64,000 nt of DNA from Planctomycetia bacterium. Its GTDB lineage: Bacteria > Planctomycetota > Planctomycetia > Gemmatales > Gemmataceae. Position numbers and translations under genes: made by a program. Below the pieces are notes generated by a model. It was not told the DNA's origin. It was given only the letters and a program-made list of their open reading frames with translations, and did not search any database. Location: NCBI GenBank assembly GCA_005808665.1, contig SYLG01000104.1, positions 1 to 64,000 of the forward strand. The letters run 5' to 3'. The number at the start of each line of letters is the position of its first letter. The first letter of the stretch is position 1. This document shows, in pieces, positions 172-48,720 of this stretch.

Positions 172-3003
172 TCACACAAAGACCTCTTTTCGGTTTGGTT
201 GAGTTTTTGGGACCAGTCCCTTTGCCATTGCAAATTCGAGCAGTTGCTCCCCTTCGCCTCGTTGCGTGAAGACTACTTCACCGGGACTGACATGGGCGTT
301 CCAATGGCGCTGAAAGATCACGGCCAGATCCTTGTTCTTGGCGAAGGCCGATGGTACGGCGTGCAGCAATTGCATTGACCGTCTGGATCTCTGGAAATAC
401 TGGCCCAGGAAGCGCGGCAGGATGCGAGAAAGCCATGTTTTCTCGCGAAACTCGACATAACGGGGGATGACATAGCGCGGGTTGTCGAATGGGCCAAGGG
501 CTTCGTGCAGGGCTTCGCTGAAGGCGGCGCTGGCCTCGGTCGTGGCGTCTTTCAGGAATGATCGGACATATCCGCCGGAGCGCGTGCCGATGTGCAAGGC
601 TCCTGTGCCATAGGGGATCACGCCGATGTCGCGCAGTGCGCCAAGCACGGCTTCGCTGACGGCCGCAGCGAGCGATTCGCCGGTCCACGGCGACTTCGCC
701 CCGGGGAAAGGTGGGAAGTCGCCGCCACCCCCGCCGATTTGTGATTCGACCGCATGAATCGGCGCGGAGTGATACGGCTGGCCGATGCGCCACAGGTTGC
801 GAAACGCCGGGCGGCGCTTTGGGCGCTCGAGCATCTCGGCGTTGAGCACGGCCATTGAGTCCTCAATCCCTTCCGGCCTGATCTCCGTGAACGCGGCGTG
901 CACATGGCCGACGCCCTTCTCGACCGCACCATCGTCGGTCAGGCCGAAGAGTGTGTTGTGCTTTTCGATGAACCGCAGATAGTCGTCCAGCCCCTTCGTG
1001 AATTCCGGGGCAAGGCAGACCACATCCCAATTGTCCGCCAGCTTCGCAGGGTCATCCGGGTCGAGCCGGAACGATCGGCCGCGAAGCTGATTCACTGAAG
1101 TTGAGGTTGTGACCGTCGTGAGATCGACCAGTACATTGATCTTGGTCGCATCCCAGCCTTCGCCGAGCAACCCTCGCGTGCCCACCAAACATTTCGTCAA
1201 GCCTTTCTGGAAAAGGTCGGTGATCATCCCGACATACACGCGCGGGCACCAATCGCTGCCGGAACCGTTGAGCAGGTGAAAGCCGCTCTCTTCGGCGAAC
1301 TCCAATTTTACATCAATCCCCTTCGCATCCAGCCATGCGGCGGCCGCCTCGGCGAAACGCGGCGCGAGGTCATCATCGACCAGCACGGACGAACCGGTGA
1401 CGAGCACGGGATTAAGCTCGTCGGTTTCGTGATCGCTCAGAAGTGTTCGAAACGCAGCGATTGCGCCCCCTGCCTCTTCGTCAAGCAAATGGCTCACCTC
1501 CGCCGTGATCGCCGATGTCTTTTCAAAGTCAGTGACAATGACCGCGCGAATGCGATCGCCCAGCGCCTTGCGTTCGGCGTGCAAAATCGGAAGGAGAGCT
1601 GCCACTTTGCTGCGTGAGTACATCAAGACACGCCCGACCGGAGAAGCGCAGACCTGTGTGCCGGTCTCCGTGACCTGCACGCCGAGCATCCGCAGCCGTG
1701 CGATTGCCCGTTTGGCCTTTTCGTGGTCGGCCGGTTCACTGGACGCCCGCAGCCGATGCCGAATGTAACGGTCCAACACCGGCACAAGGATGCTCATGTC
1801 GAGTGAGGGGCCCAACGCATCCTTCGTCGGCGAATACAATGCCGGCGGCGGCATTGGCACTCCGTAGGGAAGAGCAAGACGATGCGCCTTCAGGAATAAT
1901 CGCGCCGCCCTGGCGAACACCTCGTCCCGCTTTTCAAAGCTCTCCCAATTCTTGGCAAAGCCGACAGGCAATCGACGCTCGGTGAGCACCTGCTGGAGCC
2001 AAGCATCGAGTGACTCGTGGGGCACGCAGCTTGCGCCTGAGGTTCGGGAGCCAACGACATCCGTCCCGTCGACACACAATTCCTCGACCAGCGCATTGAG
2101 TTGCTCATCCACCTTCGCAATGAAGGCCAATTCGTCGGCCGTCGGACGCACAAATAGGACGAGATCCTGGTAAGGCGCAAGGAACCCGTCCTTTATGACG
2201 GCCGGGACAGGGACTTCGTAGTCGATCAGGCCGAAGAACTCATCGTACCTTGCGAGGTCTTCCGGCCGCTGGCCGCAACGGTCGGGAGGCGTCGCTGTCA
2301 GGCCGAGCACGATAGGGTGATCGAGGTATTCGTGGATTTCCGAGAGGACTCGCCCCCAGTGGCGGAGCAAGTGATGGCACTCGTCCAGAATGATCAGCCC
2401 GATGCCGCGCCGTTTCAGCCGTTCGAGCGTCTCCCGTGACGAAGCATGCAGCAACCGCATCACTTCGCCGCCGATGGCAGCTTCGTCGCGCAGTTCCTTG
2501 CTGTAGCTGCTCAGCCGGTCTTTGTAGTATTTTGGGTTGTGACGCTTCAGGTCGTCGATCCAGACCGCCGCTTCGTCGAAGTCCTTCGCCTGACCCTTCT
2601 CGATCAAATTCTCCTGCCAGAGACTGATCGCCTGCTTGTCGGTGTCCGAAGTACCGCGACCCGGCAATGTCACCGCCTGATAGGTCAGCGATGTCAGCAG
2701 CCCGGGAATCCCGGTGTCTGTGCTGACAATGCTTGAGGCACCGCCGTCAATACCGTCGAACAGATCGACTCGCGCCGCCCACTGCGCTTGAATGGCCGAA
2801 TTCGGCGATAGCACGAGTGCCGGGGCGCGAACATACTCGGCCCACAAATACAACCCAAGCACCGTCTTCCCCGATCCCGGCGGCGCGATGATGTGCAGCT
2901 TGTGCTGTCCCGCATCAAGCTGCCGCCTGGCGATGTCGATTGCCTCGCGCTGCGACGGACGCAATTGGCCTTTGAACCGAATTGGCGGAAAGTTTTCGGA
3001 CAT
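172..3003 (-). CDS. Superfamily 2 DEAD/DEAH-type helicase
   Basis: A 943-residue ATP-dependent nucleic-acid helicase or translocase. Visible motifs: Walker A APPGSGKT at about residues 40-47, the motif II box ILDECHH at about 205-211, motif III-like LGLTATPP at about 233-240, and in the second RecA lobe GLLGEGWDATKIN and the arginine-finger motif QLRGRSFRLD. About 100 residues with KELRDEAAIGG separate the Walker A region from the DECH box, longer than in a minimal helicase. The ATG at 3003 is the first in frame but has no strong Shine-Dalgarno. No nuclease or methylase domain is recognisable. The gene is clearly G+C-richer than its neighbours (positions 601-660 are 39/60 G+C), which suggests transfer. 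Large stand-alone helicases of this kind often belong to restriction or defence loci, but partners would lie left of the window, so that role is only inferred. Confidence 0.85.
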   Translation of the reverse strand: MSENFPPIRFKGQLRPSQREAIDIARRQLDAGQHKLHIIAPPGSGKTVLGLYLWAEYVRAPALVLSPNSAIQAQWAARVDLFDGIDGGASSIVSTDTGIPGLLTSLTYQAVTLPGRGTSDTDKQAISLWQENLIEKGQAKDFDEAAVWIDDLKRHNPKYYKDRLSSYSKELRDEAAIGGEVMRLLHASSRETLERLKRRGIGLIILDECHHLLRHWGRVLSEIHEYLDHPIVLGLTATPPDRCGQRPEDLARYDEFFGLIDYEVPVPAVIKDGFLAPYQDLVLFVRPTADELAFIAKVDEQLNALVEELCVDGTDVVGSRTSGASCVPHESLDAWLQQVLTERRLPVGFAKNWESFEKRDEVFARAARLFLKAHRLALPYGVPMPPPALYSPTKDALGPSLDMSILVPVLDRYIRHRLRASSEPADHEKAKRAIARLRMLGVQVTETGTQVCASPVGRVLMYSRSKVAALLPILHAERKALGDRIRAVIVTDFEKTSAITAEVSHLLDEEAGGAIAAFRTLLSDHETDELNPVLVTGSSVLVDDDLAPRFAEAAAAWLDAKGIDVKLEFAEESGFHLLNGSGSDWCPRVYVGMITDLFQKGLTKCLVGTRGLLGEGWDATKINVLVDLTTVTTSTSVNQLRGRSFRLDPDDPAKLADNWDVVCLAPEFTKGLDDYLRFIEKHNTLFGLTDDGAVEKGVGHVHAAFTEIRPEGIEDSMAVLNAEMLERPKRRPAFRNLWRIGQPYHSAPIHAVESQIGGGGGDFPPFPGAKSPWTGESLAAAVSEAVLGALRDIGVIPYGTGALHIGTRSGGYVRSFLKDATTEASAAFSEALHEALGPFDNPRYVIPRYVEFREKTWLSRILPRFLGQYFQRSRRSMQLLHAVPSAFAKNKDLAVIFQRHWNAHVSPGEVVFTQRGEGEQLLEFAMAKGLVPKTQPNRKEVFV

Positions 3004-3082
3004 GGGAACGCCTACCGGAAAAGACTCAGATGCCTCCCACCGCGAGGATCATGACGGCAGCGCCAAATAAAGTGGCACACAT

Positions 3083-3096
3083 TTCGTAGATACGAA
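3083..3096. promoter_or_regulatory. Short inverted repeat upstream of helicase
   Basis: TTCGTA-GA-TACGAA is a perfect 6+6 inverted repeat about 80 bases upstream of the helicase start, in the A+T-richer spacer. It could be an operator for the minus-strand gene, but a repeat this short can arise by chance. Confidence 0.2.
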
Positions 3097-3305
3097 GTTA
3101 TGGGAATCCTGAAAGGGCAAGAATTCCGGGATTCCTGAACCAAACCCTGTTGGTATTGTGTTTCCGTGTTGATACCCTTTTATATCACTGATTTTCTTGC
3201 CGATTGGCGTCTGTACACAAGGAAAGTGACAAGCGGCAAGAATTCTAAACCCGCCTGGATTTATGAAATTGCCCAATGGGTTTTTGGTCTACCGTTTTAC
3301 CTTGG

Positions 3306-3428
3306 TTAGTGGTGCGATTCCTTTTCCATGATTTGGGTTTCGTAGTCCATTGGGGACGCAGTCCCAAGTGTCGAATGAAACCTGAGAGGGTTGTAATAGC
3401 CTTCGATGAATTCGAAAAAAGTGGCCAT
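3306..3428 (-). pseudogene. IS3-family transposase (integrase core) C-terminal remnant
   Basis: Translating the minus strand from ATG 3428 to TAA 3306-3308 gives about 40 residues containing FEFIEGYYNPLRFHSTLG followed by SPMDYE. This is the conserved end of the IS3/IS150-group OrfB DDE integrase, normally F-I-E-x-Y-Y-N-x-x-R-x-H-S-x-L-G-x-x-S-P-x-x-[FY]-E. A TGA stop lies immediately upstream in frame (3429-3431), and further upstream the frame shows no integrase similarity, so the catalytic D,D,E region is gone. It is a decayed insertion-sequence scar. No terminal inverted repeats could be recognised. The fragment falls below the ORF-track length and was found by reading the antisense frame. 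Confidence 0.75.
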
Positions 3429-3608
3429 TCATTCAACTACAATCGGGTCGTTGCCAAAACACAGGTCATTCGGGAAGCTCTGGGAGCGATTGGAACCATT
3501 CCCTGGTTTCGGGACAAAAGACTCTCAACCGCCAAATCCCAAATATTTCAGGAAATAACCTGAAATCGAGCCCTAACCGGCCACCCTTGCCGCTTCCAAT
3601 AATCAAAC

Positions 3609-3638
3609 AAAAGGGGTGCATAATTATGCACCCCTTTT
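3609..3638 (-). terminator. Perfect 15+15 palindrome, probable terminator
   Basis: AAAAGGGGTGCATAA is followed directly by its exact complement TTATGCACCCCTTTT. On the minus strand the hairpin lies just past the stop of the DUF1559 gene and runs into a T-rich tail (TTTTGTTTGATT), the layout of an intrinsic terminator for that gene. The sequence is symmetric and could also work for plus-strand transcripts. Confidence 0.75.
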
Positions 3639-3659: not shown

Positions 3660-4634
3660 TTAGTTGCCAAAGTCGGCGTCAAGAGTGTTACGGGAATCGG
3701 GATTAAACGCCGTGGCCCAAGAATTCGCTGAAACCCCCGTTCCCACAATTCGAGCCGAACCGTCCCCCATGAGAACAAGGATGCCTGATGTCGAGGTAGA
3801 TTGGGCCATGGCATCCCTGGGACCTTTGGTCTTGCTTTTGGGGTCCGGTGTTGCCTGAAACACCGGATTTTTGCTGTTGTAGATTCCAGCCGGATCGATG
3901 GTTGGATCGAAAATGATGTTTGGAGAAGCCCAAAAATGGGGATTGGTAGGGACATCGACGGAAACCGCAAACCGCTCGGTAATGAACCCACAGTTGCTTG
4001 TACCCACTCCATTGGTGATTTGGGATTGGCGCCTGCTGGCAGCGGTCGCAATGGTTGGGTTGCCGCCAATGGTTGGTAAAACCGATCCATCCCGAAGGGT
4101 ATTCAATCCCGGGGCGTTCGCATCCGCTCCTCCAAAAGTTCCACCCCGAAAGACTAAAGGATTGGCTGCATAGCTTGCCAAGCCAAGAGTGCCAACCTGG
4201 GTAGGATCAGAGTCCGAAACAAAAGTAGGTACTCTTTTCGTATCCGGAATAACCCCAGCCGGGAAATTGCCCGGGGCGTTCACATTGGGAATGCCGTTAT
4301 CCTTGGCCTGGTTGTAAAGGTTGTCCTGTTGCAATCCGGGAAGCAAATAGTAAAAAAGGCTTCCATAAACATTGGTTGGGATATTATTTAACGCCCAAGG
4401 AAACCCACCTTCGGAATACGCACCATAGGCAGGGGGGTACTCTGCTTTGGTTGTGTTTCCCAAGGCAGCTTCAATAGCCAAACCGATTTGTTTCAGGTTG
4501 TTTTGACTTTTCGCCCGGGCTGCTGCCTCACGAACTTTTTGAACTGCGGGAAGCAATAATCCCACAAGTACACCAATAATGGCAATGACCACCAATAGCT
4601 CAATAAGCGTAAAACCCCTTCGACGAATGGACAT
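3660..4634 (-). CDS. DUF1559 domain protein with prepilin-type N-terminus
   Basis: A 324-residue secreted pseudopilin of the DUF1559 family that is expanded in planctomycetes. The start is set at ATG 4634, not at the track start 4769, because [16 protein letters not shown] is a textbook type IV prepilin leader (cleavage before F, E at +5). The hydrophobic helix continues to [15 protein letters not shown], then comes the family motif NNLKQIGLA. Near the C-terminus is [14 protein letters not shown], but the His of the usual H-x9-DG motif is replaced by Ser. The protein is probably assembled or anchored at the cell surface by a type II/IV-pilus-like system. It is transcribed alone, divergent from the GH38-like gene, and ends at a strong hairpin. 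Its biological role is not established. Confidence 0.9.
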
Positions 4635-41045: not shown

Positions 41046-42311
41046 ATGACAAATCGCATTGGCGGATTGTTTCTCATGGGCATTCTCATCCTTGGGGCAA
41101 GCTGTACCCAAGCTCCCAAAGCAGAGGTCAAAGCCGAAGCACCCGAGGTTACCGTCAGGCACCTTGGAGAAATGATGCTTTCGGATGACCTTGTTTTAAC
41201 CGGTCGTCTGGATGCTGTGCTTAATGTGGATATCCGTTCAAGGGTGACAGGTTACATAGACAAAGTCTATTTTAAGGATGGAGATTTTATCAAAAAGGGA
41301 GCCACTCTCTATTTGATTGACCCAAGGCCCTATCAGGCCAAACTGGATATCGCAAAAGGTGATGTCGAACGGCTGGAAGGAGAGCGCAAACTTGCGGATA
41401 TCCAAGTGGACCGTTACAAAAAACTATCCGACAAGGGAGCTGCCAGCAAACAGGATTATGATATCTGGATTGCCAAGAAAGAGGAAAACATCGGTGGTTT
41501 GGCCTCCGCAAAGTCCCAAGTAATTTACAACCAGCTTAATTTGGATTTCTGCAAGGTCATTGCTCCCATAGATGGCCAAATCAGCCGGACCCAGATCCAA
41601 GTCGGAAACCTGATCAATGCGGATAACACAACCCTTACCAATATGGTTTCCATAGACCCGATTTATGCGTATTTCAACATGGATGAACCAACCATTATTC
41701 GCCTATTGAAGCAATTGCGATCAAGTAGTTCTGATAAAAGGCGATTAAGTGAGTACATTTTGGATGTCGGTTTAGTGGACGATTTGAAAAAGGAGTTCCC
41801 TTTCAAGGGAAAGATGAATTTTGTGAATAATCAATTGGACAAGCAAACGGGAACCATTACGGTTCGTGGTGAGTTGTTGAATCCCTATGATGTCACATCC
41901 ATACCCTATAAATTGCCATTATTTAAACAGGGAATGTTTATCCGGGTAAAATTACCCCTTTCGGACCCTAAACCAAGGCAAATGGTTCCCGAGGTTGCCG
42001 TGGGTAACAATCAGGATCGCAAAGTCATTTGGATTGTTGACAGTAACGACAAGTCCCAGATGATCGAGGTGGAGGTCGGCCAAAAAGCGGGTGATGTTGT
42101 GGCCATTACCCCAACGGATCCGGAAGTAAAATTGGGGCCTGAAACCAGGGTGGTTGTCCGGGGCATCCAAAGATGCAAAGCCGATAAACCAGTAAAGCCT
42201 GTATTTGATGAAAAGGCCAAACAACCTGTGCTTCCCGGTGAAACAGGTTCCAGGAATGGCATTGGAAAAATTCCCCCTGCCAATGCCAAGGGAAGCACTG
42301 GAAAACAATGA
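41046..42311 (+). CDS. RND efflux periplasmic adaptor (membrane fusion protein)
   Basis: 421 residues. The N-terminus LFLMGILILGASCTQAP is lipoprotein-like with Cys20, though the lipobox is not perfect. The adaptor parts follow in order: lipoyl half (VDIRSRVTGYIDKVYFKDGDFIKKGATLYLIDPRPYQA), a short alpha-hairpin (LEGERKLADIQVDRYKKLSDKGAASKQDYD), the second lipoyl half (VIAPIDGQISRTQIQVGNL), and beta-barrel and membrane-proximal domains (RGELLNPY, GMFIRVKLPL). The family links inner-membrane pump to outer-membrane channel. It overlaps the first RND gene by ATGA. Confidence 0.95.
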   Translation: MTNRIGGLFLMGILILGASCTQAPKAEVKAEAPEVTVRHLGEMMLSDDLVLTGRLDAVLNVDIRSRVTGYIDKVYFKDGDFIKKGATLYLIDPRPYQAKLDIAKGDVERLEGERKLADIQVDRYKKLSDKGAASKQDYDIWIAKKEENIGGLASAKSQVIYNQLNLDFCKVIAPIDGQISRTQIQVGNLINADNTTLTNMVSIDPIYAYFNMDEPTIIRLLKQLRSSSSDKRRLSEYILDVGLVDDLKKEFPFKGKMNFVNNQLDKQTGTITVRGELLNPYDVTSIPYKLPLFKQGMFIRVKLPLSDPKPRQMVPEVAVGNNQDRKVIWIVDSNDKSQMIEVEVGQKAGDVVAITPTDPEVKLGPETRVVVRGIQRCKADKPVKPVFDEKAKQPVLPGETGSRNGIGKIPPANAKGSTGKQ

Positions 42312-45300
42312 TTTCCCGGTTTTTCATAGACAGACCCATTTTTGCGGTAGTTTTATCGCTTTTATTCACCTTGGCGGGTGGAATTAGTGTGTTTTTCCTC
42401 CCTATAGCACTTTATCCACCTATCTCCCCACCCATGGTACAAGTCACCTGCACCTACCCTGGGGCCAATGCCAAAGTCGTTTCCGATACAGTGGGAACAC
42501 CCATTGAACAACTTGTTAATGGAGTAGATCATCTCCTTTACATGCAGTCCCAAAGCACCAATGATGGCAACTATGCCTTACTACTTACTTTTGATGTTGG
42601 ATCGGATATAAACCTTGCCTTGGTTCAGGTGCAGAACCGCGTTCAACTTGCCATGCCCCTTTTACCCAATGTGGTCAGGACCCAAGGGGTCAACATCAAG
42701 AAAAAGTCACCGGATATTTTACTATCTGTATCGATAATCTCGCCAGACGGGCGCTACGATGATCTGTTTATGAGCAATTATGCCACCATTCACCTAAAGG
42801 ATGAATTGCTGCGGGCCTATGGTGTAGGGGACCTGGTCTACCTTGGGCAGAGGGATTACAGTTTCAGGGCTTGGCTTGATCCAGAACAAATGGCAAGCAG
42901 GAGTATTAGTGCCGATCAGGTCAATAATGCCCTGAAAGATCAAAACACCGAGGTCATTTCCGGGTCAATCGGTCAGGCCCCCACAACCCTCGGTCAAGCA
43001 AATCGATTGATCCTGACTGCAAAAGGCCGCCTGAAAACCCCGGAAGACTTTGGCAATGTAATCATCAAAGTCGATCCTTCCATAATTGGCGGAGCCGTGG
43101 TTCGCCTTAAGGATATTGCAAGAATTGAGCTTGGAGCCCAGCTATACGATCAGATCTGCCAGTTAAATGGAAAACCCTCTGTGGGATTGGCGATTTTTCA
43201 GCTTCCTGGAACTAATGCCTTGAGTTGTTCCGAAGCCATCCGCAAAAAAATGGAAGAACTCTCCAAAGTTTTCCCACCAGGCTTGGATTACAAAATCCTT
43301 TATGACACCAGCCCCTTTATCAGTGAATCTATTGAGGAAGTGGCTTTGACCCTTAGAGATGCGATACTTTTGGTTGCAATTGTGGTTTTGTTGTTCCTTC
43401 AAAACTGGCGCGCAACCCTGATTCCTTTGATTGCCGTGCCAGTTGCTGTCGTAGGGACCTTTGCCATCATGGGACTCATTGGATTTAGCCTGAACACGCT
43501 TTCCTTGTTTGGTTTGGTGCTTTCCATTGGGATAGTTGTAGATGATGCGATCGTGGTAGTGGAAAATGTTGAGAGGCTTATTTCCCAGGGTCTAAGTCCC
43601 CGCGACGCTACCATTCAGGCCATGGAGGAGGTGACCGGACCTGTGATTGGGGTAGCCCTTGTTCTTTCCGCCGTCTTTATCCCATGTGCATTCATCGGCG
43701 GTGTGGTTGGTCTTTTTTTTAAGCAGTTCGCACTTACCATTGCTGTTTCAACCATTCTTTCAGCCATCAACTCGCTCACGCTTAGTCCGGCCATGGCAAA
43801 GTTGCTCCTCAAGCCTCATGGTGCCAAAAAAGACCTTTTTGAAAAGGCCATTGCTTTTGTGTTTGGGAGGTTTTTTTCCTTATTCAATCGTGTTTTCTCT
43901 TCGTTCATTTCGGGATATGGCTATACGGTTGGCTTTTTATTGAAAAGATGGATCACGGTTTTGGTCCTTTATGGAATCCTGCTGGTATTTACGGTCAAAT
44001 CCTTTGGAAGCTATCCCCTGGGATTTGTACCCCTGCAAGATCAGGGATATTTGCTGGCAACCGTTACCCTTGATGATGGGGCCTCGGTGCAAAGGACGAA
44101 TGCAACACTGCTTGAGGTTGATAAAAAAGTTCGTGCAATTCCGGGGGTCAAGGCAACCTTGGCAATCGCGGGTCAATCGTTCCTTTACAATGCCAATTCC
44201 CCGAATTGGGGTTCGATGTTCATCATTTTGGACGATTTCAAAAATCGTACCAAACCCGGCTTGGGTGCCATGGAAATCCTCCTTGCCGTGAGAAAAGCCT
44301 GCACTTCCCAATTTCAGGAGGCTTCCATAGGGGTATATCCAGCTCCCCCGGTTAAAGGGTTGGGAACCGCAGGGGGATTCAAATTTTATTTGGAAGATAG
44401 GGGTAATTTGGGAAATCAGGTCCTCCAGGATTCCGCAAATGACCTTGTTGCGTCCATGTCCACTTTGGGTTTACCCATGGTACGAACCGAATTTAACGCC
44501 AATATGCCCCAACTATTTCTGGACATCAATCGGGAAAAATTGCGCAATCAGGGAATCGCTTTGGAAACGCTTTTTAACACCTTGCAAACCCAAACGGGAT
44601 CCATGTTTATCAATAATTTCAATCTTTTTAGTCGGTATTGGCAACTTAAAACCATGGCAGCACCGGAATTCCGGGCGGCGACCCGTGAATTCCTCAATAT
44701 CAAGGTCCCCAATATCAAAGGGGAAATGGTCCCTATAAGTACACTGCTTACCCTGGTTAATGATCGCGGACCGGCCATGATCATGAGGTATAACCTCTAC
44801 CCCGCAGCCCCCATTGCCGGGATTCCGGGGCCTACCACCTCAGCCGGAACCGTTATTTCCCAGGTGGATGCGATCGCCAAAGCACAACTTCCGGATCAAT
44901 TTCACCTGGATTGGAGCGAAATCTATTTCCTGCAAATCAAGGCCGGAAATACCGCTGTCTTCCTTTTCCTTTTGGGAATACTGTTGGTATTTCTGGTGTT
45001 GGCGGCTTTGTATGAAAGTTGGACCAACCCGTTTGCTGTGATTCTTGTGGTGCCCCTCTGCCTCCTTTCGGCCATGGGAGGGTTAGCCATAAATCATTTT
45101 CCCATAGATATCTTGGCCCAGGTTGGATTGGTGGTGCTGGTTGGTTTGGCCTGCAAGAACGCCATTTTAATTGTCGAATATGCACGCGAATTGCGCCAAA
45201 AGGGGATGGAAATCAGGGAAGCGACCCTGCTTTCCTGCAAACTTCGATTCCGACCAATCATCATGACTTCCATGGCATTTATTTTGGGAGTTGTTCCCTT

Positions 45301-45466
45301 GGTGGTGGCACGGGGTGCGGGGGCAGAAATGCGTTGGTCCTTGGGGATCACGGTTTTTTCCGGCATGATTGGGGTAACCCTGTTTGGCACCCTGCTCACT
45401 CCCGTTTTTTACCAAACCATGGAGTCGATCTCGACCCGGTTTATCCGGAAAGGCAGGCAGGGATGA
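42308..45466 (+). CDS. RND multidrug efflux pump (HAE1), first copy
   Basis: 1052 residues, normal for AcrB-type pumps. MISRFFIDRPIFAVVLSLLFTLAG is the conserved start, the proton-relay pair lies in SIGIVVDDAIVVVENVERL, and FFLPIALYPPISPPMVQVTCTYPGA and LQNWRATLIPLIAVPVAVVGTF are family blocks. Probably proton-driven export of drugs, lipids or other amphiphiles as a trimer. It is translationally coupled to the adaptor upstream and to the second pump downstream. Confidence 0.96.
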   Translation: MISRFFIDRPIFAVVLSLLFTLAGGISVFFLPIALYPPISPPMVQVTCTYPGANAKVVSDTVGTPIEQLVNGVDHLLYMQSQSTNDGNYALLLTFDVGSDINLALVQVQNRVQLAMPLLPNVVRTQGVNIKKKSPDILLSVSIISPDGRYDDLFMSNYATIHLKDELLRAYGVGDLVYLGQRDYSFRAWLDPEQMASRSISADQVNNALKDQNTEVISGSIGQAPTTLGQANRLILTAKGRLKTPEDFGNVIIKVDPSIIGGAVVRLKDIARIELGAQLYDQICQLNGKPSVGLAIFQLPGTNALSCSEAIRKKMEELSKVFPPGLDYKILYDTSPFISESIEEVALTLRDAILLVAIVVLLFLQNWRATLIPLIAVPVAVVGTFAIMGLIGFSLNTLSLFGLVLSIGIVVDDAIVVVENVERLISQGLSPRDATIQAMEEVTGPVIGVALVLSAVFIPCAFIGGVVGLFFKQFALTIAVSTILSAINSLTLSPAMAKLLLKPHGAKKDLFEKAIAFVFGRFFSLFNRVFSSFISGYGYTVGFLLKRWITVLVLYGILLVFTVKSFGSYPLGFVPLQDQGYLLATVTLDDGASVQRTNATLLEVDKKVRAIPGVKATLAIAGQSFLYNANSPNWGSMFIILDDFKNRTKPGLGAMEILLAVRKACTSQFQEASIGVYPAPPVKGLGTAGGFKFYLEDRGNLGNQVLQDSANDLVASMSTLGLPMVRTEFNANMPQLFLDINREKLRNQGIALETLFNTLQTQTGSMFINNFNLFSRYWQLKTMAAPEFRAATREFLNIKVPNIKGEMVPISTLLTLVNDRGPAMIMRYNLYPAAPIAGIPGPTTSAGTVISQVDAIAKAQLPDQFHLDWSEIYFLQIKAGNTAVFLFLLGILLVFLVLAALYESWTNPFAVILVVPLCLLSAMGGLAINHFPIDILAQVGLVVLVGLACKNAILIVEYARELRQKGMEIREATLLSCKLRFRPIIMTSMAFILGVVPLVVARGAGAEMRWSLGITVFSGMIGVTLFGTLLTPVFYQTMESISTRFIRKGRQG

Positions 45467-48400
45467 TTCCCAGGTTTTTCATTGACCGGCCCATTTTCGC
45501 ATCGGTGGTTTCCATCCTCTTGGTCCTTGGGGGAGCGGTCTCCTATCTGACACTGCCAACCACGCAATACCCCGAAATCACCCCCCCAACAATTGAGGTT
45601 TCCACGATTTATCCAGGGGCGAATGCGGAATTGGTTCGGGATACCATTGCCGCACCAATCGAACAACAAGTAAGTGGCGTCGAAAATGCAATGTACATGA
45701 GCTCGCAATGTACCAACGATGGCCGCTATCGCCTCGTGATTACATTTGCGCCGGGAACCGATCTCAGTATGGCCCAGGTCCTTACCCAGGTTCGTGTTTC
45801 TTTGGCCCTACCCATTTTGCCCGATTTGGTTCAACGACAAGGGGTTTCGGTCCTCAAAAAGGGGGCTGGGGCCATGATGATCATTAATTTCACCAGCCTT
45901 AGTGATCCAACAGGTAAATCCCTTTTTACCGATACCTTTATGAGCAATTTTGCCACGATTCAGGTAAGGGACGAATTGCTCCGTGTAGAGGGCGTTGGGG
46001 ATGTTGGCTATATTGGCCAGCGGGACTACAGTATGAGAGCCTGGTTGGATCCTGAGCGCCTTGCTTTTCTTGGCTTGACAACGGATCAGGTGGTGGTTGC
46101 CCTCACCCAACAAAACTTTCAGGTTGCGGCTGGGAATATCGGCCAACAACCAGCCCCTGTCGGGCAAGCTTTTCAAATCACCCTAAGTGCCCTGGGTCGC
46201 CTAATCACCGAGAAGGAATTTGGCGATATTATAATCAAGGCCTTGCCCGGCACGGACGGAACCCCAGATGCGGTTCTTGTCCGCCTGAAAGATATTGCCC
46301 GTATCGAACTTGGTTCACAACAATACGACCAAATTTGCACATTGGATGGCAAACCAAGTGTTGGCTTGACCATTTTTCAACTTCCCGGTTCCAATGCCAT
46401 AAAAACGGCCGATGCTGTCCGCTTAAAGATGAAAGAATTGTTCACCGGGCTATCCACTGGCCTTGATTACAACATTGTCTATGACACCACCCCATTCATT
46501 CAGGAGTCCAAAACCGAAGTATTAAAAACACTCCGTGACGCTATCCTTTTGGTGGCACTTGTCGTCCTTGCTTTTTTGCAAAATTGGCGAGCAACCCTAA
46601 TACCCCTCATTGCCGTTCCGGTTGCGATCATTGGAACCTTCATCCTCATGGCAGCCTTGGGTTTCAGCCTCAACAACCTTTCCCTTTTCGGCTTGGTGTT
46701 GGCTATTGGAATTGTGGTGGATGATGCCATTGTTGTCGTGGAAAATGTCGAGCGGTGGATGGAGCAAGGATTATCCCCAAGGGATGCTTCCATTCGGGCA
46801 ATGGACGAGGTGACCGGACCAGTTTTGGGTGTGGCGCTTGTGCTAACGGCGGTGTTTGTTCCATGTGCATTCATCTCCGGAATTGTCGGCCAATTTTTTA
46901 GGCAATTCGCCCTAACCATTGCTGTATCAACGCTTTTGAGTGCCCTCAATTCGCTTACGCTAAGCCCGGCACTTGCCGCCTTATTGTTGAAACCAAAACA
47001 TGCCAAACCGGATATTTTAGACCTTTTTTTGCGTTGGACTCTTGGTTGGTTCTTTTTCCTGTTCAACTTTGCCTTTAATTGGGCCAATCAGGCCTATGGT
47101 GCGATTGTCGGGGGTGCACTCCGGATCAGCCTTCTGGTCCTACTTGTGTATTGCGGCCTCCTTTGGTTCACGGCAATCCTTTTTACCTCCGCACCCACCG
47201 GTTTTATCCCCCAACAGGATAAGGGCTACCTCATTGTTAATGTGACTTTACCCGATGGTGCCTCCCTTGAACGGACAAGTGAAGTAATCCAATTGATGGA
47301 AACGGAAGCAAGCAAAGACAAGGCGGTTACCCATACAGTGTCAATAGCTGGCCAATCGCTGGTGTTTGGTGCCAATTCCCCCAACTGGGGTGCCATGTAT
47401 GTCATGCTCAAGGGTTTTTCCGAACGCCCCGGCCCTGAAGGATCCGCCGATGCGATTTCCCTAAGGCTTAAGGCGGTTTGGGAAAGCCTTGTTCCCGATG
47501 CCAAGGTGGAAGTATTTGGCGCCCCACCCGTGGACGGTTTGGGAACTGTCGCAGGATTCAAAATGATTATCGAGGATCGTGGAGACTATGGCAGCCGTTC
47601 CCTCCAATCCGCAGCGGATCTTTTGGCCAAACAGGCAACGGAGGATCCCCAATTTCGCGGGATTTTTACTAATTACCGGGCGGACACTCCCTGGATCTGG
47701 CTCGATATTGATCGGGATAAGGCTCAATCCCTTGGCGTTTCCATTCAAGAACTTTTCCAAACATTACAGGTCAATCTTGGGTCGTATTATGTAAATCAAT
47801 TCAACCGATTTGGCAGATCCTGGCAAGTCAATATTCAGGCGGACGGCAAAAACCGAACCGAGATTCATGAAATCCTCAATCAGTTGAAGGTTAAAAACAA
47901 CCAAGGGGATATTATTCCCCTTGCGACCCTGATCCGCCCCCAATCTTCTACTGGTCCAAGCCTGATAATGCGCTACAACCTTTATCCCGCGGCGGCCATT
48001 TTTGGCGAACCCGCCCCTGGGATAAGCTCAACGACAGCCCTTGAAAGTTTTCAAAACAAATTCCAATCCCTTCGGGATAGTTCCGATATTTCCAGCCTCA
48101 TGTTCGCCGACTGGACCGAAATGGCCTATATGCAGATTCGCTCAGGGAATACGGCCATGTTACTTTTTGGCCTCGGGGTGGTTTTGGTATTTTTGGTATT
48201 GGCAGCACTTTATGAAAGCTGGGCACTTCCCCTGGCCGTTATCATGGTCGTCCCCATGTGCCTGTTATCGGCCATTTTTGGCTTGCTCCAGGCGGGAATG
48301 GATGTCAACATTTTCAGCCAAATTGGCTTTGTGGTGCTTGTGGGCCTTGCCTGTAAAAATGCGATCCTTTTTGTGGAATTTGCCAAACAGCTCCGGGAAG

Positions 48401-48720
48401 AGGGAACGCCCCTTCGGGATTCAGCCCTAATTGCCTGCAAAATGAGGCTAAGGCCCATCCTGATGACTTCATTTGCCTTTATTTTGGGGGTATTGCCGTT
48501 GGTTATTGCCGAGGGAGCGGGGGCCGAAATGCGAAGGACATTGGGCCAAACAGTATTTTGCGGCATGGTTGGGGTAACGGGCTTTGGAATTTTCCTTACG
48601 CCGGTGTTTTATTACTGTATTTTGTATTTCGCAAAACCTCCCGTGGGTAAAATCCGGGGAACCACGGATAATACCTCACCTTTGGAGGCAACCAAGTCTT
48701 CGGAAGGACATCTCGAATGA
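45463..48720 (+). CDS. RND multidrug efflux pump (HAE1), second copy
   Basis: 1085 residues from ATG 45463, which overlaps the first pump stop (ATGA); the track start at 45019 is a shadow inside the first gene. MIPRFFIDRPIFASVVSILLVLGG, IVVDDAIVVVENVERWM and LQNWRATLIPLIAVPVAIIGTF parallel the first copy, so the two arose by duplication. Tandem RND genes with one adaptor recall MdtABC-type heteromultimeric pumps, which is an inference. The C-terminus carries an extra tail (TTDNTSPLEATKSSEGHLE). Confidence 0.96.
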   Translation: MIPRFFIDRPIFASVVSILLVLGGAVSYLTLPTTQYPEITPPTIEVSTIYPGANAELVRDTIAAPIEQQVSGVENAMYMSSQCTNDGRYRLVITFAPGTDLSMAQVLTQVRVSLALPILPDLVQRQGVSVLKKGAGAMMIINFTSLSDPTGKSLFTDTFMSNFATIQVRDELLRVEGVGDVGYIGQRDYSMRAWLDPERLAFLGLTTDQVVVALTQQNFQVAAGNIGQQPAPVGQAFQITLSALGRLITEKEFGDIIIKALPGTDGTPDAVLVRLKDIARIELGSQQYDQICTLDGKPSVGLTIFQLPGSNAIKTADAVRLKMKELFTGLSTGLDYNIVYDTTPFIQESKTEVLKTLRDAILLVALVVLAFLQNWRATLIPLIAVPVAIIGTFILMAALGFSLNNLSLFGLVLAIGIVVDDAIVVVENVERWMEQGLSPRDASIRAMDEVTGPVLGVALVLTAVFVPCAFISGIVGQFFRQFALTIAVSTLLSALNSLTLSPALAALLLKPKHAKPDILDLFLRWTLGWFFFLFNFAFNWANQAYGAIVGGALRISLLVLLVYCGLLWFTAILFTSAPTGFIPQQDKGYLIVNVTLPDGASLERTSEVIQLMETEASKDKAVTHTVSIAGQSLVFGANSPNWGAMYVMLKGFSERPGPEGSADAISLRLKAVWESLVPDAKVEVFGAPPVDGLGTVAGFKMIIEDRGDYGSRSLQSAADLLAKQATEDPQFRGIFTNYRADTPWIWLDIDRDKAQSLGVSIQELFQTLQVNLGSYYVNQFNRFGRSWQVNIQADGKNRTEIHEILNQLKVKNNQGDIIPLATLIRPQSSTGPSLIMRYNLYPAAAIFGEPAPGISSTTALESFQNKFQSLRDSSDISSLMFADWTEMAYMQIRSGNTAMLLFGLGVVLVFLVLAALYESWALPLAVIMVVPMCLLSAIFGLLQAGMDVNIFSQIGFVVLVGLACKNAILFVEFAKQLREEGTPLRDSALIACKMRLRPILMTSFAFILGVLPLVIAEGAGAEMRRTLGQTVFCGMVGVTGFGIFLTPVFYYCILYFAKPPVGKIRGTTDNTSPLEATKSSEGHLE

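Follow-up and report, generated by a model that had tools for sequence, protein, structure and literature searches.

A truncated and decayed IS3-family right end next to a putatively acquired helicase gene in a Gemmataceae bacterium

What is the short antisense reading frame that lies between a conserved block of genes and a G+C-rich helicase gene in the genome of a Planctomycetia bacterium of the family Gemmataceae, and does it mark the edge of an acquired island? The locus is part of a stretch of 64,000 nucleotides that we analysed as a whole and that is called the window here. With a probability of about 0.92, the feature can be read as what is left of the right end of an IS3-family insertion sequence that is truncated on its 5' side and has decayed; it would consist of the last 30 to 34 or so codons of orfB, a hairpin-bearing tail of about 240 bp and a right terminal repeat that ends at position 3068.

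The frame itself (positions 3306 to 3428, minus strand) encodes 40 amino acids, MATFFEFIEGYYNPLRFHSTLGTASPMDYETQIMEKESHH. It had been recognized in the first-pass annotation as the end of an IS3 OrfB integrase, and this assignment holds: exactly this open reading frame is present, and it corresponds to the C-terminal end of OrfB, a DDE transposase. The frame matches the Pfam family rve_2 above the gathering score (E = 7.3e-5) as well as the very end of the NCBIfam model NF033516, transpos_IS3 (model positions 344 to 369 of 369, E = 5.7e-4). Moreover, full IS3 OrfB proteins match the locus by their C-termini in tblastn searches, with 63% identity over 30 amino acids in the case of IS1501 (E = 3.5e-7). 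Finally, a hidden Markov model (HMM) built from eleven OrfB proteins, the same set that served as protein queries, had its sole match in the six frames of the 64-kb window at this locus (E = 2.9e-10). Just about 30 residues match, as would be the case if the similarity to IS3 had arisen by chance; however, the E-values of the HMM in five shuffled windows ranged from 0.25 to 3.4, and the fragment belongs to a family of repeats that is recognizable at the DNA level. A chance resemblance is thus refuted, and its remaining probability is negligible.

The similarity to OrfB starts at about position 3434, within about three residues of an in-frame stop codon, indicating that the window copy is truncated at this point. 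The upstream stop codon noted in the first-pass annotation is indeed present in frame, but it does not cut off a longer readable transposase, since the IS3 similarity ends there as well. The truncation is located downstream of all three catalytic residues (D, D and E), and an orfA/orfB arrangement is absent from the window. A functional transposase at 3306 to 3428 is therefore ruled out: with the catalytic residues lost by decay, the copy is a remnant of the family rather than a functional IS3 element.

Judged from DNA alignments, the whole remnant is larger than first noted and spans positions 3068 to about 3434. Downstream of the OrfB stop codon, a non-coding 3' tail of about 240 bp (positions 3068 to 3305, minus strand) extends to the right terminus, and this tail is common to decayed copies on the contigs C167 and C2 of the same genome and to an internally deleted copy in a sibling genome of the same genus. 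A repeat search in combination with folding revealed a decayed hairpin in the tail (positions 3194 to 3242) with the arms TTCTTGCCGATTG and CAAGCGGCAAGAA; the hairpin is strong in the C2 copy (z = -7.2) and in the sibling copy (z = -4.9) and decayed in the window copy (z = -1.4). The tail is terminated by the right terminal inverted repeat (positions 3068 to 3093, minus strand), which reads TAAAGTGGCACACATTTCGTAGATAC in the inward direction. Every tail copy stops at the base equal to 3068, the consensus end of these copies being GTGGGCCACTTTA, and the pattern of the repeat has eight 23-bp matches in the genome as compared to none for the reversed control pattern. Of the terminal repeats, for which the first-pass annotation proposed a search, the right one is thus present; the left end of the window copy has been lost, and no target duplication is visible there. 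Intact IS3 relatives have merely about 10 to 50 bp between the orfB stop codon and the right repeat, so that a tail of about 240 bp is unusual. As to other functions of this region, an RNA gene in the tail was rejected because there is no Rfam match near the gathering score, and an outward promoter reading from the end of the element toward the helicase gene was rejected because there is no sigma-70-like site.

The sibling copy is particularly informative for the anatomy of the element. In Gemmataceae bacterium Baikal-deep-G173, the region L066:1130-1685 contains a 556-bp internally deleted IS3 element with 25-bp inverted repeats at both ends that differ at two positions. It encodes an IS3 OrfA, which is followed by the hairpin and the tail as in the window copy (69% identity over positions 3104 to 3250); in fact, OrfA reads on in frame into the hairpin tail, resulting in a frame of 156 amino acids. 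No target duplication is evident at this copy. The presence of the tail, both repeats and an IS3 OrfA in a single element shows that an IS3-family element has its right terminus at position 3068. Alternatively, the window might contain two adjoining remnants, an IS3 element whose actual right end is near 3246 and, next to it, an independent short repeat from 3068 to 3246. This idea is supported by the copy on contig C129, the match of which ends at about 3246, by the short 3' ends of the intact IS3 relatives, and by shorter, tail-only copies on C15, C130 and C88, in which part of the tail stands alone. However, the junction is common to three copies (window, C2 and C167), and in Baikal-deep-G173 the tail lies inside one element with matching inverted repeats and an IS3 OrfA, which makes two separate remnants unlikely. 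The junction shared by the three copies leads us to infer that the intact ancestor of the element already had the tail. Moreover, the sibling element shows that the IS3 family has yielded internally deleted derivatives that lack the transposase. The OrfA of this element was also used as the query in a scan of the genome collection.

Sequence searches in the genome that harbours the window identified additional members of the repeat family. Complete copies, for which the first-pass annotation proposed a search, were not among them; what was found are decayed relatives on other contigs. The copies on C167, C2 and C129 are 75 to 82% identical to the window fragment at the DNA level. The C2 copy reaches further upstream in OrfB and encodes MESFFETFKMGL, similar to the MESFF region that surrounds the catalytic E in intact OrfB proteins; this short stretch did not score with any Pfam family on its own. 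Contig C63 carries a broken OrfA and the start of OrfB in different frames; at the DNA level, this remnant is 71% identical to the OrfA of the sibling. No intact copy was found in this genome, and the NCBIfam model gives just two partial matches, both below the cut-off. Since a full-length element belonging to precisely this family did not turn up, the order orfB, tail and right repeat had to be pieced together from broken copies. A second decayed IS3 OrfB fragment (L023, C104:32311-32523) is located at a contig end; it was rejected as a member of the family as it has no DNA similarity to the window element and its relatives. In addition, the genome contains a miniature-type element in at least 40 copies with 21-bp terminal inverted repeats, TAACCCAAGTTACGCAGTTGG, lengths of 285 to 724 bp and no clear coding gene (examples are L030:1501-2221, L046:1501-2224, L047:1501-1785 and L019:630-914). 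Many assembly contigs stop about 140 bp inside its left arm, and one arm of the element is joined to the tail copy on C88. A link of the IS3 remnant to this element was rejected, as its ends are absent from the window.

Does the remnant mark the edge of an acquired island, as had been suggested? The right terminus at 3068 is located 65 bp before the start codon of a gene encoding a DEAD/ResIII-type helicase of 943 amino acids (positions 172 to 3003, minus strand; GC content 60.4%, GC3 0.72), which lies outside the insertion sequence. Its GC3 of 0.717 compares to a mean of about 0.53 and a maximum of 0.60 in the other large open reading frames of the window. Both genomes of the same genus, which are 90% and 79% complete, lack the gene. 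Among the 61 sampled genomes of the family, it occurs in 2, the one other helicase being 66 to 70% identical. Thus, foreign composition and patchy distribution coincide in this gene, as in genomic islands; models of defence systems gave only weak matches. On the other side of the remnant, also outside of it, a perfect palindromic terminator (15+15, 30 bp; positions 3609 to 3638, minus strand) follows a DUF1559 gene. The gene order is conserved with Baikal-deep-G173 from about 8816 down to 3609 and stops at this terminator, of which the sibling has a diverged yet palindromic version in the same place, exactly at the break in synteny. With the other sibling genome, conservation stops at 3660, and past the breakpoint the two siblings do not agree with each other either. 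The outlying GC3, the patchy distribution and the break in synteny suggest that the helicase gene is probably an accessory gene acquired by horizontal transfer. An island at this locus is therefore plausible and in part supported, but its far edge on the helicase side is off the contig, which starts at the first base of the window. The proximity of the right end to the foreign and patchily distributed helicase gene and the break at 3609 would also fit an element that took an active part in importing a composite island with the helicase, or that flanks such an island. This scenario is improbable: the window copy is truncated, no second copy is visible on the far side, where the contig starts, members of the family occur dispersed over at least six other contigs, and at this breakpoint the two siblings are not alike either. 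Any link between the element and the arrival of the helicase gene would be conjectural, since the decay of the element and its wide scatter over the genome preclude tying it to this event. Elsewhere in the window (42308 to 48720), two large adjacent open reading frames share about 70% DNA identity over 696 bp (43100 to 43791 and 46279 to 46970); they probably represent a tandem gene duplication.

We suggest that a small family of IS3 elements once moved in this genus of the Gemmataceae, presumably by the ordinary DDE-transposase mechanism that is typical of the family. The window copy would then have lost everything upstream of about 3434 and decayed to the remnant that now has the terminator, where the conserved block of genes ends, on one side and the helicase gene on the other. 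As every copy that turned up in this genome is broken, the element is inert. Our work confirms an unannotated IS fragment, establishes its real boundaries and demonstrates that this genus harbours a decayed IS3 family. At the locus itself, the remnant marks the end of the conserved gene order and the start of the accessory helicase gene. It is an ordinary inert remnant of the IS3 family and leaves general understanding unchanged. It is tempting to speculate, though doubtful, that an IS3 lineage of the Gemmataceae carries a hairpin-bearing module of about 180 to 240 bp between orfB and the right repeat. Since this module is kept in copies that lack orfA or orfB, it may matter for the mobilization of miniature derivatives.

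Literature searches yielded nothing on the window element, nor on IS1501 in Leptospira. The derivative in Baikal-deep-G173 (L066/L106) has the same hairpin tail and the same right end as the window copy. The two differ in what has been retained: the derivative keeps both ends and OrfA and has lost orfB, whereas the window copy keeps the end of orfB and has lost everything upstream of it. IS1501 of Leptospira interrogans, which also belongs to the IS3 family, resembles the window copy in the C-terminus of OrfB, the 30-residue match with 63% identity, and its terminal repeat contains GTAGACACC, a near-match to the consensus end of the window family. However, the right repeat of IS1501 is located at the orfB stop codon, whereas in the truncated window copy a hairpin tail of 240 bp lies between the two.
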